DNA of 64,000 bases from Nitrospirota bacterium (GTDB lineage Bacteria > Nitrospirota > Nitrospiria > Nitrospirales > Nitrospiraceae). Every line of letters begins with the position of its first letter. Positions within the stretch are counted from its first letter, which is position 1. Below the pieces are notes generated by a model. It worked only from the letters and a program-made list of their open reading frames with translations. It made no database searches and was not told the origin of the DNA. The translations under genes and the position numbers were made by a program. This document shows positions 31,668-39,539 of the stretch, one piece after another. The stretch covers positions 63,014 through 127,013 of the forward strand of contig NSIK01000010.1 in assembly GCA_002737345.1 (NCBI GenBank). The letters run 5' to 3'.

Positions 31668-31921
31668 CTGCAATTTCCGCCACTACGACACCACCTTCGC
31701 AAAAATTGATCGCGCTATTCGCTGCGTACGATGGGCTCGCATCCGAACCGATCCCGCCTGTCCTGACAGAGTTTTGCCATAACCTGCTGGCGCAGCGTCA
31801 ACCTCGCGTCGAACCCTAGAGTTGGGGAGCGTTCGAAATGCGCCGCACCGATCCAGGATCGGGAATCAGGGCGTTCACCTTGACTCCCCCCGAGGTATCA
31901 TGTTATTGGCAAAAAGTGATT

Positions 31922-32698
31922 ATGCACGCTGCAGCCCTCGCGTTCCTCCTCGTGAGCCCCGTTTCGGCCGCGGAGTTGCCGGCTACCGCCACGATACCAG
32001 CCCCCCCGGTCATCGAAAGCCCTGCAATCCTCGCCCAGAATCAAGCTGACCCCTCCATCCGATTACGGGGATCGGTCTGGCAAACCAAAGCCGGGATCGT
32101 TTTTCTTAGAACTCCAATCGGTCTATTGTCCCTCAGCTCCAAAACGACATTGAAGGATATCAAAGCCTCGCACGAGGTACGCCTGTGGGTCCATGGACAT
32201 GATACGATCGTCGAGATCCGCAAGAGGACCGACGGCTCACTGGTCCACCGCTATCTCAGCGGGCCCCTGACGCGCGGGACCGAGGATCCCAACACGCTGC
32301 TCTGGTGGGGGCCGGACGGAAACCAGATCGTCCATGTCGGCACAGCGGAAAAGCGCCTCGCGGACTACAAGGAGGGAGATCGGCTGACCGTCGAAGTCGA
32401 CGACACGAACACCATCCGCGGGGTGCACGATCTGCAATTCGACCTGCAAGTCAGCCAGATCCCACACGCCGGCGCCGACGTGCAGCTCTTCCTGTCGGGA
32501 ACCGTCGCCAAACTCAAATCGAACTTCGTGCTGCTCCGCACCCCCATCGGCCTGGTGATGCTCAATTCAAAGATTGGGGTTCCTTCGGTGAAGGTAGGCC
32601 AGTCGTTGACTGTACGCATCGACCATGAGCAAGTCACTATCGCCCTCCCATCAACGAAGGCGCCGATTGCACGACCCGGTGCCCCAGGGGTCTACTGA
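31922..32698 (+). CDS. Exported protein with two tandem beta-repeats, in sigma-factor operon
   Basis: A 258-residue protein with a signal peptide (MHAAALAFLLVSPVSAAELP). The mature part contains the same unit twice: VWQTKAGIVFLRTPIGLLSL with SSKTTLKDIK, and VAKLKSNFVLLRTPIGLVML with NSKIGVPSVK. A connecting segment (LVHRYLSGPLTRG...LLWWGPDGNQIVHVGTAEK) follows the first repeat. I do not recognise the family. It is 3 bases upstream of the ECF sigma factor, so it is part of the same transcript. A TTGACT lies about 40 bases before the ATG but with a poor -10. It may be a periplasmic partner or target of the sigma system. Confidence 0.75.
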   Translation: MHAAALAFLLVSPVSAAELPATATIPAPPVIESPAILAQNQADPSIRLRGSVWQTKAGIVFLRTPIGLLSLSSKTTLKDIKASHEVRLWVHGHDTIVEIRKRTDGSLVHRYLSGPLTRGTEDPNTLLWWGPDGNQIVHVGTAEKRLADYKEGDRLTVEVDDTNTIRGVHDLQFDLQVSQIPHAGADVQLFLSGTVAKLKSNFVLLRTPIGLVMLNSKIGVPSVKVGQSLTVRIDHEQVTIALPSTKAPIARPGAPGVY

Positions 32699-32701
32699 GC
32701 C

Positions 32702-33319
32702 ATGGCCACAGCCCTCAAAAACCGCTCTCAACCACTCCCTGCACAAGGGCTAGACGAATTTGGCACGCTCTATCGAGACCACGTCGATCTGGTTTACCGT
32801 TACGCCCATCGCCTCTGCGGAGAAACGGAGGCGGCGAAAGATCTCGTCCAGGAGACCTTTCTCAATGCCTACCGGGGGCTCAAGAATTTTCGCGGGGACG
32901 CGCGGATCTCGACCTGGCTCTACACCATTGCGTCACGCACCTGCATGAAGATGCGGCGCAAGCGAAAGGGCGAGCCGGAGCACGAACTCTCGCTCGATGA
33001 ATTTGTGCCCACCTCGGAAGGAGAGTTTCGCCTCCAGATCCCGACGGAGGGACTCAGTCCCGAAGAGGCGCTGGAAAACAAGGAACTCCGGCGGGCCCTC
33101 GACCAGGCGATCAACAAACTGCCGAAAAAATACCGCATGGTCCTAATCCTTTGCGACATGGAAGAGGTCAGCGCCAAGGAAGTCGGCACGATCATGAGCC
33201 TCAATGAACGGGCCGTGAAATCGCGGCTGCATCGGGCGCGTTTATTCGTCCGGCGGGAGCTCAGCGCCCGCGGCATCCTCGATGAAAATGACCACAAGTC
33301 GAGGAGCTTGCGCTCATGA
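32702..33319 (+). CDS. ECF-type RNA polymerase sigma factor
   Basis: A 205-residue sigma-70 relative with region 2 (LVYRYAHRLCGETEAAKDLVQETFLNAYRG, then FRGDARISTWLYTIASRTCM) and region 4 (LDQAINKLPKKYRMVLILCDMEEVSAKEVG, RAVKSRLHRARLFVRREL). Region 3 is absent, as expected of an ECF (group 4) factor. It is followed immediately by a zinc-finger anti-sigma gene whose ATG overlaps the stop (ATGA). Such pairs sense envelope or oxidative stress. The promoters it recognises are unknown, and a cupredoxin and two exported proteins nearby are likely regulon members. Confidence 0.93.
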   Translation: MATALKNRSQPLPAQGLDEFGTLYRDHVDLVYRYAHRLCGETEAAKDLVQETFLNAYRGLKNFRGDARISTWLYTIASRTCMKMRRKRKGEPEHELSLDEFVPTSEGEFRLQIPTEGLSPEEALENKELRRALDQAINKLPKKYRMVLILCDMEEVSAKEVGTIMSLNERAVKSRLHRARLFVRRELSARGILDENDHKSRSLRS

Positions 33320-33621
33320 CCAAGAAAAAGACCGCGACGCCACACACGAAACAGACCAAACCGTCCTCGCGCCATAAAGCAGGGCGAGGCCATTGCTTGA
33401 AACTTCTTCGACAACTCTCTGCCTATATCGACGGAGAACTCGCCTCCGACATTTGCAAAGAAATACGCAGCCACCTCGGCGCCTGTCCGAATTGCGAGGT
33501 CTTCATCCTCTCCCTCCAACAAACCGTCATCCTCTGCCGACACCGGCCGGTCCCACCCTTGAAATCGGCCGACCGAGTTGCCCTGCGCCGCGCCATCCTC
33601 AAGAAGGCCAACGCCAAGTGA
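33316..33621 (+). CDS. Zinc-finger anti-sigma factor (zf-HC2 type), no transmembrane helix
   Basis: A 101-residue protein with a basic N-terminal tail and the anti-sigma zinc-binding motif SHLGACPNCEVF (HxxxCxxC), preceded by the helix LRQLSAYIDGELASDICKEI. It ends after ~30 more residues with no transmembrane segment, so it is a soluble anti-sigma like RsrA/ChrR types rather than a membrane-bound RseA-like one. It overlaps the sigma factor by 4 bases (ATGA) and its TGA overlaps the cupredoxin GTG start. Metal or redox sensing through the Zn-Cys centre is plausible. Confidence 0.85.
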   Translation: MTKKKTATPHTKQTKPSSRHKAGRGHCLKLLRQLSAYIDGELASDICKEIRSHLGACPNCEVFILSLQQTVILCRHRPVPPLKSADRVALRRAILKKANAK

Positions 33622-34019
33622 AAGGAACGGTCTGGCTCATAGGCCTGGCCTGGCTGCTAACTGTTCCTGCCTCTGCGCTTTCCGGCGACCTCGACATGGA
33701 ATCGATCACCGTCGAGATCCATGGACGGATGTTCATCCCAGACCGCATTACCCTCCATGCCGGACGTAAGACCGCGCTGCGATTCCGTAATCACGATACG
33801 GAGCTCCATACCGTGGTGGCCAAGGAACTCTTCCTCGGCGTCAATCTCAACGTGGGCGGCAATGGAGCTCCGGAATTCTCTCCCGATGGGCTCACCAGAG
33901 TCATCATCCCACCTGACGGGCTGGCGGAGATTCAGTTCACGCCGACCGGCGCCGGAACGTTCCCCTACCGATGCGACATGCCAGGTCATGACATGCGCGC
34001 CGTGATTGTCGTCGAATAG
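33618..34019 (+). CDS. Exported cupredoxin-domain protein
   Basis: A 133-residue protein starting at a GTG that overlaps the anti-sigma stop (GTGA). A signal peptide (VWLIGLAWLLTVPASALSGD) is followed by a blue-copper fold: ITVEIHGRMFIPDRITLHAG, then LRFRNHDTELHTVVAKELF with the first His ligand, and FPYRCDMPGHDMRAVIVVE at the C-terminus with Cys, His and Met ligands. It is a type-1 copper protein, probably an electron carrier or copper-binding protein in the periplasm. Being the third gene after sigma and anti-sigma suggests copper or redox stress control. Confidence 0.88.
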   Translation: MKGTVWLIGLAWLLTVPASALSGDLDMESITVEIHGRMFIPDRITLHAGRKTALRFRNHDTELHTVVAKELFLGVNLNVGGNGAPEFSPDGLTRVIIPPDGLAEIQFTPTGAGTFPYRCDMPGHDMRAVIVVE

Positions 34020-34073
34020 CTGGGAATCTGCTCCTGCCCGATCCGTCCTTCGTGTCCCGCTCCTGCCTGCCTC

Positions 34074-34103
34074 TTTCAGATGCTCAAAGCAGCGTGGTAC
34101 AGT
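34074..34103 (+). promoter_or_regulatory. Candidate promoter of the 34145 gene
   Basis: TTTCAG, an 18-base spacer and TGgTACAGT (an extended -10), with the expected start ~35 bases before the ATG. Confidence 0.4.
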
Positions 34104-34144
34104 GCAGGCTTCGTCCCGTCTTTCATTTTAGGAGCCTGTACGAC

Positions 34145-35845
34145 ATGCGACGCCTGCAAATCCTCCACCGAGGCTGGTTCACAATCCTGTTTCTTTCCGG
34201 AACCCTGTCGATGGTTGCCACGACGACCCTGATCGGCGTGTCGCAGGCATCACCCGCTCAGAAAAAATCCAATCCTGTGGCCACCTCAGCGGAAACGACG
34301 GCGCAACGCTATGCCGAAGCGATGGGGGCAGGAGACAAAACAGCCGTCGGCCGACTCGACTTCGCCTGCCAATATCCCCTGGCCGCCAGCAGCAAGAACA
34401 GCGCTGCAGACCTCGACAGCCACTACGACTCCTGCTGGCAGCGGGTGCGCGCAGCCCATGCCCCCACCCTCGTGAGGAGCGACGTGGGAATGGAGGTCTT
34501 GTGGCCCAGTAACGGCGCCCTGGTCTTTTTCAGTGAAGAGCTGAACCGCTATCCCGCCTCGGCCTTCGTAGCCGACTCGCTGGGTCAGGCTCCTCCGGGA
34601 ACCGGATTCCATATCCACATTGCCGGAAGCACGCAACTTCCCTCCGCCTCATTCCGTCTCAAACCGAACGGCCCGCTCGTGGCGGTGCCGACCACCCTGG
34701 TCAAACTAACGATCAGCTACCAGGGCCCCCTGACTGCGCCTTTGACCTACGCCGCCGGCTCCGTCAAATGGACCAGTACGATTAAGCGGACCAGGCGGGC
34801 GCTCAAAGAAATCACGCTCCAATGGGTCGTTCTCTCCGGGCTGAAGAAACAAGGCTTCGCCAACGATACGGCAGTCGTGAACCTTCCCGTCACCAGCGGC
34901 GCCGTCGCTGGCAGCGGCATCATGGAAAAGATTCCCTTTGTCACGGAAACGAGCCGCGCCCTCCCCGACTCACTGGTCTGGTGGGGACCGACGGATGTCC
35001 CTGGCCTCTTGACCGCCGCCGCCGCCCGCGCCGCCACCTTTCCTGAACTGCGCGACCGCGTCGCCATGCTGAATCGCGTCCTCATCATCGATCCCAATCA
35101 GACCGAAGCCCTCATGGTGTTGAGCCGGCACCTCTATGCCATGGTCCTACGAGAAGCCATCCCCCTCCACAAACTAATCGTGAAAGATCCGGCTCTGGCT
35201 CTGGTGGTGAACGAACATTTCTGGAACATCTACGCCCAATCGACGCGCATCGACCTGTCGCTGGGGATGGAGATGGGCGGGTTCGACAAACCGACGACTG
35301 CCGATTACCTCTACCGCATGATCTCGGCGATGCAGGCCTTGGCGGCGGTCCATTCTGAACAGCTGGATAACCAATTCCGGTTAGGCGCGGCCTTGCGCTG
35401 GAACAACGATCAAGAAGCTTCGATCGAAACGGGCCAGGCCCTCGTCAAAGCCATCTCGCCCGATCGCAGAGCCGGCAGAACCGAAGCCCTGCTCCAGCTA
35501 GCCTGGGCCCGCGTGAACAAAGTCGCCTGGAACCGAGTCTTCGACGACTCAGATGTTCGGACCGCCTATCAGGATGCCGACGAGGCCCTCGCGCTGGCCG
35601 ATTTGCCACTCGATAAATTCATGGCCGAATACACCAAGGCCTACAGCCTGCTCTTCACTCCGGACCGAAACAATCGCGAGATCTTGGCGCGGCTGACAGA
35701 AGCGAAAAAATGGTTTGCCGAAATTCCCGGACAAACACCAGACATCTGGCAATACTTCATCGGGGCCGAGCAGCTCAAGATGGTCCTGGACGCCGATCCG
35801 ATATTTCAGCCGTTGCTCGCCGCCACAGAGCCGACGAAAGGCTAG
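34145..35845 (+). CDS. Large exported protein of unknown function
   Basis: A 566-residue protein with a long N-terminal hydrophobic leader (WFTILFLSGTLSMVATTTLIGVSQASPAQ). The first half contains a beta-rich domain (TGFHIHIAGSTQLPSASFRL, then LTYAAGSVKWTSTIKR). The second half is helical and TPR-like (DRVAMLNRVLIIDPNQTEAL continuing MVLSRHLYAMVLREAI, and ADEALALADLPLDKFMAEYTKA). An AGGAG is placed ten bases before the ATG. I do not recognise the family. It follows the sigma/cupredoxin genes by 125 bases and has its own candidate promoter. Confidence 0.75.
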   Translation: MRRLQILHRGWFTILFLSGTLSMVATTTLIGVSQASPAQKKSNPVATSAETTAQRYAEAMGAGDKTAVGRLDFACQYPLAASSKNSAADLDSHYDSCWQRVRAAHAPTLVRSDVGMEVLWPSNGALVFFSEELNRYPASAFVADSLGQAPPGTGFHIHIAGSTQLPSASFRLKPNGPLVAVPTTLVKLTISYQGPLTAPLTYAAGSVKWTSTIKRTRRALKEITLQWVVLSGLKKQGFANDTAVVNLPVTSGAVAGSGIMEKIPFVTETSRALPDSLVWWGPTDVPGLLTAAAARAATFPELRDRVAMLNRVLIIDPNQTEALMVLSRHLYAMVLREAIPLHKLIVKDPALALVVNEHFWNIYAQSTRIDLSLGMEMGGFDKPTTADYLYRMISAMQALAAVHSEQLDNQFRLGAALRWNNDQEASIETGQALVKAISPDRRAGRTEALLQLAWARVNKVAWNRVFDDSDVRTAYQDADEALALADLPLDKFMAEYTKAYSLLFTPDRNNREILARLTEAKKWFAEIPGQTPDIWQYFIGAEQLKMVLDADPIFQPLLAATEPTKG

Positions 35846-36799: not shown

Positions 36800-38170
36800 C
36801 TATCCCTTTCCCATCTTCGCCAATTCCTCAAAATAATGCGCGAAGGCCTTCATGCCGCTAGAGGCCTGGCCCCAATCGAAATATTCGTTGGGCGCATGGT
36901 ACCCATGCTCCGGCAGGCTCAACCCCATGAACAGGATCGGCACCTTCCAGGCCTTCTGCATCGTGACCACTGCGCCGATCGAGCCTCCCTCGCGGATGAA
37001 CGCCGGTTCTTTTCCGAAGCCTGCCTTCGCCGCCCGCTTCACGCAATCGACATAGGGGCCATCAAAACTCCCCTTGAAGGGGTGCAACATGCCTTCCTTC
37101 TCCACCCTCACATCCGGATTGATCTTGGCCACATATTTCTTGAGCAAGGCAAAAGCCTTCTCCGGAGTTTGATTCGGCACCAATCGCATACTCACTTTCA
37201 GTTCGCCATGGCCCGGCACAACTGTCTTGACCCCCGGCCCGTGATAGCCTCCGGTCAGGCCATGTACCTCGAACGTCGGAGCGGTCCAGATCCGGCGCAT
37301 GATCTCGGCTGGATCATTGTTGCGCAACGTCTGAAATCCGTAGGCCTGCTTGAAACTCTTCACCTGAAAGCCTGACGACAGGAAACTCTTGATCTCCGCT
37401 TTGGTCGGCTCGACCACATCCTGGTAGAAACCGGGAATTTTTACCATGCCGCTTTTGGCATCGACACAAGCCTGCGCCACTTCCATCAATTCCGCGAGCG
37501 GATTCCTCGCGGCCCCTCCGGTCACCCCAGAATGGGCGTCTTTCGTCCCAGTGCGCAACGTGAGCCTCGCGCCTAGCAGACCTCGCAGACCATAGGGCAT
37601 GGCAGGCTTGCCCTTAGCGAGCCAGATGGTGTCCGACACCACGACTGAGTCAGGCCGGGGGATTGCCGCCCGGTTCTTCAATCCTGCCGCAAAATTCGGG
37701 CTACCGATTTCCTCTTCCAGCTCCCAAAGAAACCGGATATTGATGGGCACTCCCTGCTCAATCGCATACCGCGCGCCGAACAGAGCCGACAGCGCCGGCC
37801 CCTTGTCGTCCGTCGCGCCACGGCCGTGGTAGAGCCCGTTCTCGTTCTTAAAGGCAAAGGGCGCCTGCTTCCATTCAGGCTCCTGTGCTGGCTGCACATC
37901 CATGTGGTTATAGATGGTGACCGTCGGATACTGGGCTCCGGTCATCCAGCCGCCCGACACGATCGGAGCCCCACCGGTCTCCACGATCTGCGCCTCCGCC
38001 CCCAGATCCGTGAGGACCTGCCGCGCGACATCCGCCATGCTACTCATATCCGGAGCCTTCGCGGGGTCCATGCTGATCGAAGGAATCTCCACCATCTGCC
38101 CCAGCAAATCTTCATACCGGCGGCGGATCTCTGTTATGTAAGTACCGAGCTGTCGTTCGTTCACGCTCAT
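36800..38170 (-). CDS. M20 family metallopeptidase (dipeptidase-type)
   Basis: A 456-residue zinc-dependent amidohydrolase/peptidase. The N-terminal part holds TVTIYNHMDVQPAQEPEW (H of the metal site), LYHGRGATDDKGPALSALFG (D), and IRFLWELEEEIGSPNF (EE motif). The dimerisation lid and the C-terminal IREGGSIGAVVTMQKAW with HGYHAPNEYFDW follow. The ATG at 38170 (MSVNERQLGT) has AGGGAG seven bases upstream; the longer track ORF is rejected. M20 members include dipeptidases, carboxypeptidases and deacetylases; the exact substrate is unknown. Confidence 0.9.
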   Translation of the reverse strand: MSVNERQLGTYITEIRRRYEDLLGQMVEIPSISMDPAKAPDMSSMADVARQVLTDLGAEAQIVETGGAPIVSGGWMTGAQYPTVTIYNHMDVQPAQEPEWKQAPFAFKNENGLYHGRGATDDKGPALSALFGARYAIEQGVPINIRFLWELEEEIGSPNFAAGLKNRAAIPRPDSVVVSDTIWLAKGKPAMPYGLRGLLGARLTLRTGTKDAHSGVTGGAARNPLAELMEVAQACVDAKSGMVKIPGFYQDVVEPTKAEIKSFLSSGFQVKSFKQAYGFQTLRNNDPAEIMRRIWTAPTFEVHGLTGGYHGPGVKTVVPGHGELKVSMRLVPNQTPEKAFALLKKYVAKINPDVRVEKEGMLHPFKGSFDGPYVDCVKRAAKAGFGKEPAFIREGGSIGAVVTMQKAWKVPILFMGLSLPEHGYHAPNEYFDWGQASSGMKAFAHYFEELAKMGKG

Positions 38171-38285
38171 GATTTGTCTCCCTGAAAGTAGCCGCGGATT
38201 ATACCGACTGTACCGCCAAGGCGAAAGAGAGCGTCTTCCGCTTCGCACGTTGCTCATAAAAGCAGGAATGGTAGAATGGCGGCCT

Positions 38286-38675
38286 ATGACCGTCGAAGAG
38301 TTCGCCCGATACAGAAAACTTGTCGTCTTCTTCATCGCGCTCTGGCTTTGCGGGGCCATCTCGCCTTCTCTTGCTTTGGCAGCCGATCCTATTCCTATTT
38401 GCAAGATCCTGGACGAACCAACCCGCTTCCATCTCCGACAAGTGACGCTGCAAGGCACCGTGCGGGACGTACAGCCCCTCGATCCTTATACCCTAACGGT
38501 AGGCTCCACCTATTACGGGGTCTATTTGTTTTATCTAAAAGACGAAACTGCCTCGGTCAATGTCGCTTCGTTTGGCCGCTGCGGCATCCCGACGGTCAGA
38601 GATCCGGACGTGGAAGACGGTACACCCATGGAACTCCAGGCAACCGTCCAAGCGCCCAGCCATGGCGGCTACTAG
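38286..38675 (+). CDS. Small exported protein of unknown function
   Basis: A 129-residue protein with a signal peptide (KLVVFFIALWLCGAISPSLALA) and a mature domain with the flavour of an OB-fold (FHLRQVTLQGTVRDVQPLDP, then YTLTVGSTYYGVYLFYLKDE). It retains two cysteines in the mature part that may pair. The start at 38286 is preferred over two alternatives. No family can be named. It is divergent from the M20 gene. Confidence 0.6.
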   Translation: MTVEEFARYRKLVVFFIALWLCGAISPSLALAADPIPICKILDEPTRFHLRQVTLQGTVRDVQPLDPYTLTVGSTYYGVYLFYLKDETASVNVASFGRCGIPTVRDPDVEDGTPMELQATVQAPSHGGY

Positions 38676-38837
38676 TTGAATCTCTAGGGGCCCAAAGTAG
38701 CAGGGGAGCAAGAGGGTGCAATGCAAGCTGTGGCAGGCAAAATCACTCCACTCCTCGATGAAGTAAAACCGTAGTAGGCCAGGCGCTGGGGCTCGGTTCG
38801 ACGGGCTCTGCAAAATCCACGGAAGGATGTTACCGAC

Positions 38838-39539
38838 ATGACGCTCCACCCCTACATTTTGCTCGCGCTGTTCCTCTTCTCAACCGGTTGCGCGAGCAAT
38901 CCGACGAAGCCTATCGATTCGCTCCAGCAGATACTGAAAGACGAAGAGGCTCAGCTGACGGGAGCTCTGCTATCAGAACAGACAGCGGCCCCCTTCCCTA
39001 AGCAGGGCCCTCCAAAGTTGGGACTCTATATCATGCCGACCGGATTCCTTCACCATAAGTTCGAATGGACCGATGCCGATCGGGAAACTCTCCAGGCCTG
39101 GGCCAACGGATTGCAACGAGAGGGCCTCATCAGCGGCTCATCCTTCCTCCATCTTGCTTCAGTCAAAGGGAACCAATGGGCGCAGCTGCGGGAGTCAGCC
39201 ATGCGGTACGGAACTGACCTCCTGCTCATCGTGAATGGCGCCGCGGCCGTCGATCGCTACAACAACTACAAAGGGACATTGCTCTACTGGACCATCGTCG
39301 GGGCCTACTACGCCGACGGCACCCACAGCGACGCGCTCTGTCTCGTGCGAAGCTCTTTGTGGGATGCCCGACGAGGAACCAAACTGGCGGAGGAAGAGGC
39401 ACAGGGCGCCTCGAAAGTCGTCGGTCCCAGCGGGCGGACCGAAGATCAAAACCAAGTCACAGAAGCGCGCCGACAGGCGCTGACCCAACTGATGAAGAAG
39501 CTGCGCGACGATGTCGCAAGAATCAGCAGAGCGCGCTGA
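38838..39539 (+). CDS. Putative lipoprotein of unknown function
   Basis: A 233-residue protein with a lipobox (ILLALFLFSTGCASN). The mature part includes KLGLYIMPTGFLHHKFEWTD, LRESAMRYGTDLLLIVNGAA and LVRSSLWDARRGTKLAEEEA, ending in a helical tail with TEARRQALTQLMKKLRDDVA. It reads like the LPS-related or DUF-type lipoproteins that sense envelope status, but I cannot name the family. AAGGA lies 11 bases upstream of the ATG. Confidence 0.65.
   Translation: MTLHPYILLALFLFSTGCASNPTKPIDSLQQILKDEEAQLTGALLSEQTAAPFPKQGPPKLGLYIMPTGFLHHKFEWTDADRETLQAWANGLQREGLISGSSFLHLASVKGNQWAQLRESAMRYGTDLLLIVNGAAAVDRYNNYKGTLLYWTIVGAYYADGTHSDALCLVRSSLWDARRGTKLAEEEAQGASKVVGPSGRTEDQNQVTEARRQALTQLMKKLRDDVARISRAR

Follow-up and report, generated by a model that had tools for sequence, protein, structure and literature searches.

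The closest described counterpart of the gene cluster analysed here is the SigR-RsrA pair of Streptomyces coelicolor, in which an ECF sigma factor is accompanied by a short, soluble anti-sigma factor of the zf-HC2 type. The zinc ligands of RsrA are Cys11, His37, Cys41 and Cys44, to which is added a non-essential Cys31; the N-terminal cysteine is needed for oxidative release, and proteins with an HHCC site have been argued not to release oxidatively, with one contrary report noted (PMC4960319). Soluble zinc anti-sigma factors have been associated with intracellular redox sensing, and zinc sites in anti-sigma factors may be purely structural, for example in RsiW (PMC7406223). CorE is an ECF sigma factor with a C-terminal Cys-rich domain and without a linked anti-sigma factor (PMC3107203). 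It is copper-dependent in Myxococcus and has a homologue, NIDE1902, in Nitrospira defluvii; beyond one mention of a CorE-type homologue, we found nothing in the papers searched on ECF regulation in Nitrospira. Plastocyanin and cytochrome c6 exemplify how copper and heme carriers interchange in one role, and auracyanin A exemplifies the small exported domain of blue-copper type, with conserved His, Cys, His and Met, that is encoded in the present cluster.

The window, i.e., the whole stretch of 64,000 nucleotides that was analysed, comes from a genome of 1.67 Mb that is 91.6% complete and has Nitrospira MAGs as its nearest named neighbours. The order der - PAS-like ORF - sec - sig - asf - cup - big - aat is found genus-wide, where sec denotes an exported protein with OB-like barrels, sig the sigma factor, asf the anti-sigma factor, cup the cupredoxin and big an exported TPR-like protein (Table 1). 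Further downstream, at 38169-39539 of the window, lie genes for two more probable exported proteins without a Pfam family above cut-off, one of which has a lipoprotein-like N-terminus.

Table 1. Features of the cluster, in window positions
Feature	Position	Strand	Evidence
Relic of a small PAS-like gene	31694..31850	+	tblastn remnant from residue 16 at 40%
Putative promoter B (before sec)	31880..31909	+	TTGACT-N18-TATTGG, TG before second box
sec, exported protein, probably three tandem OB-like barrels	31916..32698, start GTG 31916 or ATG 31922	+	
sec/sig junction, derived, 3 bp	32699..32701	+	
sig, ECF sigma factor	32702..33319	+	PF04542, PF08281, TIGR02937 above cut-off
asf, soluble putative zinc anti-sigma factor, CHCC type	33316..33621	+	zf-HC2 above cut-off, no TM
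cup, exported cupredoxin, GTG start	33618..34019	+	PF13473 53.1 bits, auracyanin A E=6e-4
Putative promoter C (before big)	34074..34103	+	TTTCAG-N18-TACAGT, extended TGG
big, exported protein, C-terminal half predicted TPR-like	34145..35845	+	AF2 helical repeats

The reading that we prefer, and to which we give an even chance of being correct, is that in this cluster of the Nitrospiraceae an RsrA-like cytoplasmic anti-sigma factor holds an ECF sigma factor, and that both are coupled by gene overlaps to the exported carrier of a carrier/TPR pair. As long as the cell is reduced, the sigma factor would stay bound through the CHCC zinc site of its anti-sigma factor. When C27 together with C57 or C60 is oxidised or thiol-modified, zinc would be ejected and the sigma factor freed to transcribe its targets, while the exported carrier, a cupredoxin here and a cytochrome c elsewhere, would be paired with the exported TPR protein.

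The sigma factor has Sigma70_r2 (70 bits) and Sigma70_r4_2 (58.3 bits) domains and scores 107 bits with TIGR02937 (cut-off 42.9 bits), and together with its short length this places it among the ECF factors. It is the sole ECF sigma found in the 91.6%-complete genome, where the three other genes with a Sigma70_r2 domain lie within long open frames; larger members of the genus yield several ECF-like matches. In a protein search, a close homologue (E <= 1e-90) was found in nearly all of the 32 genus genomes, the ones without it (G013, G021, G022) all being fragmented, and homologues at E <= 1e-70 are present beyond the genus, in several genera of the same family and in a single genome from a different one. 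The protein shares with CorE its class, its presence in Nitrospira and a possible link to copper, but it has no cysteine after region 4 and does have a linked anti-sigma factor, which is the reverse of the CorE arrangement.

The anti-sigma factor (zf-HC2, 34.1 bits) carries the class I zinc anti-sigma motif H53-x3-C57-x2-C60 beside an ECF gene. None of the residues C27, C47, H53, C57 and C60 varies among 18 orthologues, some of which come from another family; the spacing C27-x25-H53-x3-C57-x2-C60 is identical to that of the four RsrA ligands, and C47 stands at the place of the extra Cys31. The RsrA model TIGR03988 matches all 18 members, with 3e-10 as the best value. Both the invariant spacing and these matches count in favour of a redox switch. 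The window protein reaches 28.1 bits of the 62.5 required by this equivalog model, and therefore it is not classed as RsrA but as a protein that may work like it; it differs from RsrA also in a further conserved cysteine at position 74, in place of Cys61/62 of RsrA. An earlier note on this DNA had claimed that the protein lacks a membrane helix, which agrees with a highest 19-residue Kyte-Doolittle mean of 1.25, and had suggested cytoplasmic sensing of thiols or metals. The thiol half of this suggestion is carried by the soluble form and the full RsrA-like site with its N-terminal cysteine, which make thiol-redox sensing our best guess and a cytoplasmic redox switch plausible but unproven, while the analysis gave no support for copper stress.

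The same note had described an ATGA overlap between the sigma and anti-sigma genes and a GTGA overlap between the anti-sigma and cupredoxin genes, and had taken the cupredoxin to be translationally tied to the regulators. When the open reading frames were read again in the window, both overlaps were found as described. The first occurs in 32 of 35 relatives and the second, as [AG]TGA, in 24 of the 29 that possess a cupredoxin, where a few loci in both counts are the same genome entered twice. From this genus-wide conservation follows that the translational link is conserved and not due to chance. A single coupled operon is, however, confined to sigma, anti-sigma and cupredoxin. The gene big, at the end of the stretch that the note covered, lies 125 bp downstream of the cupredoxin gene behind a conserved promoter of its own, marked by a block GC[AG]TGGTACAGT that most relatives keep. 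As the note had it, only three bases (GCC) lie between the end of sec and the ATG of the sigma gene, but this junction is a derived state.

The distance between sec and sig is 90-250 bp in most relatives. These gaps are mostly unalignable except for GCTTGACAGGCCT...CCCCTAGACTTCGCGCCA.CCATG just ahead of the sigma start, where a conserved sigma70-type sequence, TTGACA-N17-TAGACT (promoter A), is placed so that the ATG is almost leaderless. The 3-bp gap, with promoter A gone, is found in the window, L046 and L032, which group together in the sigma tree with modest support (83/78). The comparison indicates a recent, lineage-specific deletion in a clade of reduced genomes, by which promoter A was removed; in the window the sigma gene is probably read from promoter B before sec. 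The motif TTGACAGG-N(12-17)-TAGACT occurs one to six times per genome in the genus, against a control near zero, and precedes sig, rimO, pilC and a gene for a 67-aa basic protein. In the window's genome the more general TTGACA-N(16-18)-TANNNT occurs 83 times against 10 in the control and is the general promoter type, and TAGACT is not prominent among the matches listed. Promoter A was rejected as the mark of an ECF regulon on these grounds, and the economical reading is that it would be a housekeeping sigma70 promoter giving a sigma mRNA with almost no leader. Promoter B, which in the form TTGACT...ATGnTATTCGC is kept ahead of sec across Nitrospira and in further genera of the family, was rejected in the same role, being essentially unique to sec, while some genomes have a second group of such sites without a long ORF close behind. 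So was the dyad GGTGCAACTCTTGCA, which with that middle occurs essentially once per genome; it lies upstream of the PAS-like gene in relatives and is gone from the window. Motif searches of the genus genomes thus recognised no ECF-type promoter or regulon for this sigma factor, and this, together with the sigma70-like promoter of the relatives, weakens the redox-switch explanation.

The loss of promoter A could also mean that the switch is decaying in this reduced genome and no longer works as in relatives, a tentative possibility that is compatible with either sensing mechanism and does not exclude the preferred reading. The neighbouring PAS-like gene has decayed: in most relatives it encodes about 131 aa and stands unbroken between der and sec (L046:3866-4225 and L048:3647-4042, containing MIVFSSSARILHMNGPAR), and in the window it has an internal stop, has lost its N-terminus and is mostly gone. 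The name PAS-like was given by eye, and the ORF matches no Pfam family. With L054 as outgroup, the window's sigma factor has 14 residue changes where that of L046 has one (binomial p=0.001), among them the region-4 changes R151C and G155E, which are shared by L032, a relative in which nearly all of sec is lost as well. A genome of 1.7 Mb from another genus (G211) has neither sigma nor anti-sigma. Against decay speak the open reading frames of the cluster, which are all intact, and the preserved anti-sigma ligands. The other cluster genes have near even numbers of changes in the window and L046 except for a milder excess in big (20 against 8); the lineage as a whole is somewhat fast, and since a synonymous control over seven genes is borderline (Fisher p 0.04-0.06), the excess in the sigma factor is only suggestive. 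Weakening of the sigma switch in reduced genomes may be under way.

A further alternative, which we hold to be rather unlikely, is that the zinc site is structural, that sigma activity is set mainly by expression level or by another partner, and that the cluster is expressed nearly constitutively. The sigma70-type promoter of the relatives, and its complete loss in the window's clade, would suit such an arrangement, and RsiW provides a precedent for structural zinc in an anti-sigma factor (PMC7406223); this precedent and the missed TIGR03988 cut-off also reduce the weight of the redox-switch explanation. The strict conservation of CHCC, not HHCC, speaks against a structural site, as it is the feature tied to redox release (PMC4960319).

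The cupredoxin scores well above the 27-bit cut-off of Cupredoxin_1, with H64, C119, H124 and M126 as invariant columns, and far below that of the copper-resistance cupredoxin CopI (NF051440, 12.7 against 280 bits). From auracyanin A, to which its similarity is weak, it differs in having the Met two residues past the second His and in the overlap of its gene with that of the anti-sigma factor. It is missing from one Nitrospira clade (support 100/99) and from most of the g6 genomes that were read. Among the genomes read of genera g2 and g17 a CxxCH cytochrome c, monohaem and with 44 bits to Pfam Cytochrom_C, stands in its place, and in g3, g18, g19, g21, two other named loci and one Nitrospira the cupredoxin is followed by this same cytochrome. 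Across the family the slot therefore holds a cupredoxin, a cytochrome c, both or neither, while sigma, anti-sigma and almost always big are kept, and these four states suggest that the slot belongs to a small exported electron carrier, a role that would fit the slot protein better than that of a copper-stress effector. The parallel with plastocyanin and cytochrome c6, where a copper or heme carrier fills one slot in relatives, differs in that the exchange is here known from gene content in one slot.

The earlier note had proposed a copper or redox stress circuit. A copper form of it, in which the anti-sigma factor would lose its zinc to Cu(I) or another thiophilic metal and free the sigma factor while the cupredoxin buffers periplasmic copper, could draw on the coupling of cupredoxin to anti-sigma in nearly all cupredoxin-bearing Nitrospira, on the seven conserved Cys/His positions, including LCRH, in most Nitrospiraceae anti-sigma factors, and on a second cupredoxin in G008 (L155:554-2815), 43% identical to the first, whose gene neighbours code for a regulator of the MerR type, a membrane protein resembling MerT and an HMA (MerP-like) protein. 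We consider it improbable and rejected a copper-stress regulon, because sigma and anti-sigma persist in one Nitrospira clade and in most or all genomes read of three genera where the cupredoxin is dispensed with, a cytochrome c takes its slot in several genera, the cluster has no copper genes such as a pump or chaperone, and the sigma factor has no CorE-like Cys-rich tail.

The novel exported partners proposed in the note were borne out in that neither sec nor big has a Pfam or NCBIfam family above cut-off. For sec, GTG is the more likely start since two close relatives have this GTG and no ATG; the N-terminus is shorter in the window and its nearest relatives L046 and L054. Both copies of the FxxLRTPIGLxxLxSK unit were located, at residues ~61-74 and ~203-216. 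The AF2 model (pLDDT 81, 164 residues >=90, mostly above 90 past residue 40) makes it likely that this unit belongs to a row of three OB-like barrels, each some 60 residues long, and the best structure matches are to EF-P/CSD/Mpa OB folds and to multidomain OB/cold-shock proteins (E ~1e-3, low TM-scores). The repeat family varies in repeat number, reaches several copies per genome and is nearly restricted to Nitrospiraceae. For big, helical repeats are modelled from ~282 to 559, confidently over most of 331-560, and a structure search returns TPR matches, so that the C-terminal half would be TPR-like; beyond the repeats the model is too weak for Foldseek, and the N-terminal part has two invariant cysteines.

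Sister family f3 has cup next to big without this sigma factor alongside. G211 (L192) retains cup-big and yields no ECF match at E <= 1e-10, and the small genome G160 (L195) retains sec-sig-asf and has lost cupredoxin, cytochrome and big. These gene contents imply two modules, usually together and not strictly interdependent, of which cup and the TPR protein are the wider and probably the older pair, next to which sigma and anti-sigma stand in the Nitrospiraceae. The swapping of carriers and the occurrence of cup-big without this sigma factor (f3, G211) count in favour of the preferred reading, and since G211 and G160 each lose one pair alone, control of the carrier by the sigma factor becomes less likely. 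The preferred reading, an RsrA-like switch coupled to this pair, differs from SigR-RsrA in its coupling to exported redox proteins and in the sigma70-type promoter before the relatives' sigma gene. Its bolder extension, that a Nitrospiraceae-specific disulfide-stress sigma switch sets the supply of an exchangeable periplasmic copper or heme electron carrier, together with a dedicated exported TPR protein and an exported OB-barrel protein, we regard as a long shot.

Nitrospira carry out nitrite oxidation and complete ammonia oxidation. For these bacteria, the cluster represents a compact candidate redox sensor beside a periplasmic carrier slot that is filled by copper, by heme, by both or by nothing, and it illustrates how a promoter was lost, and regulation possibly decayed, in Nitrospira with reduced genomes.
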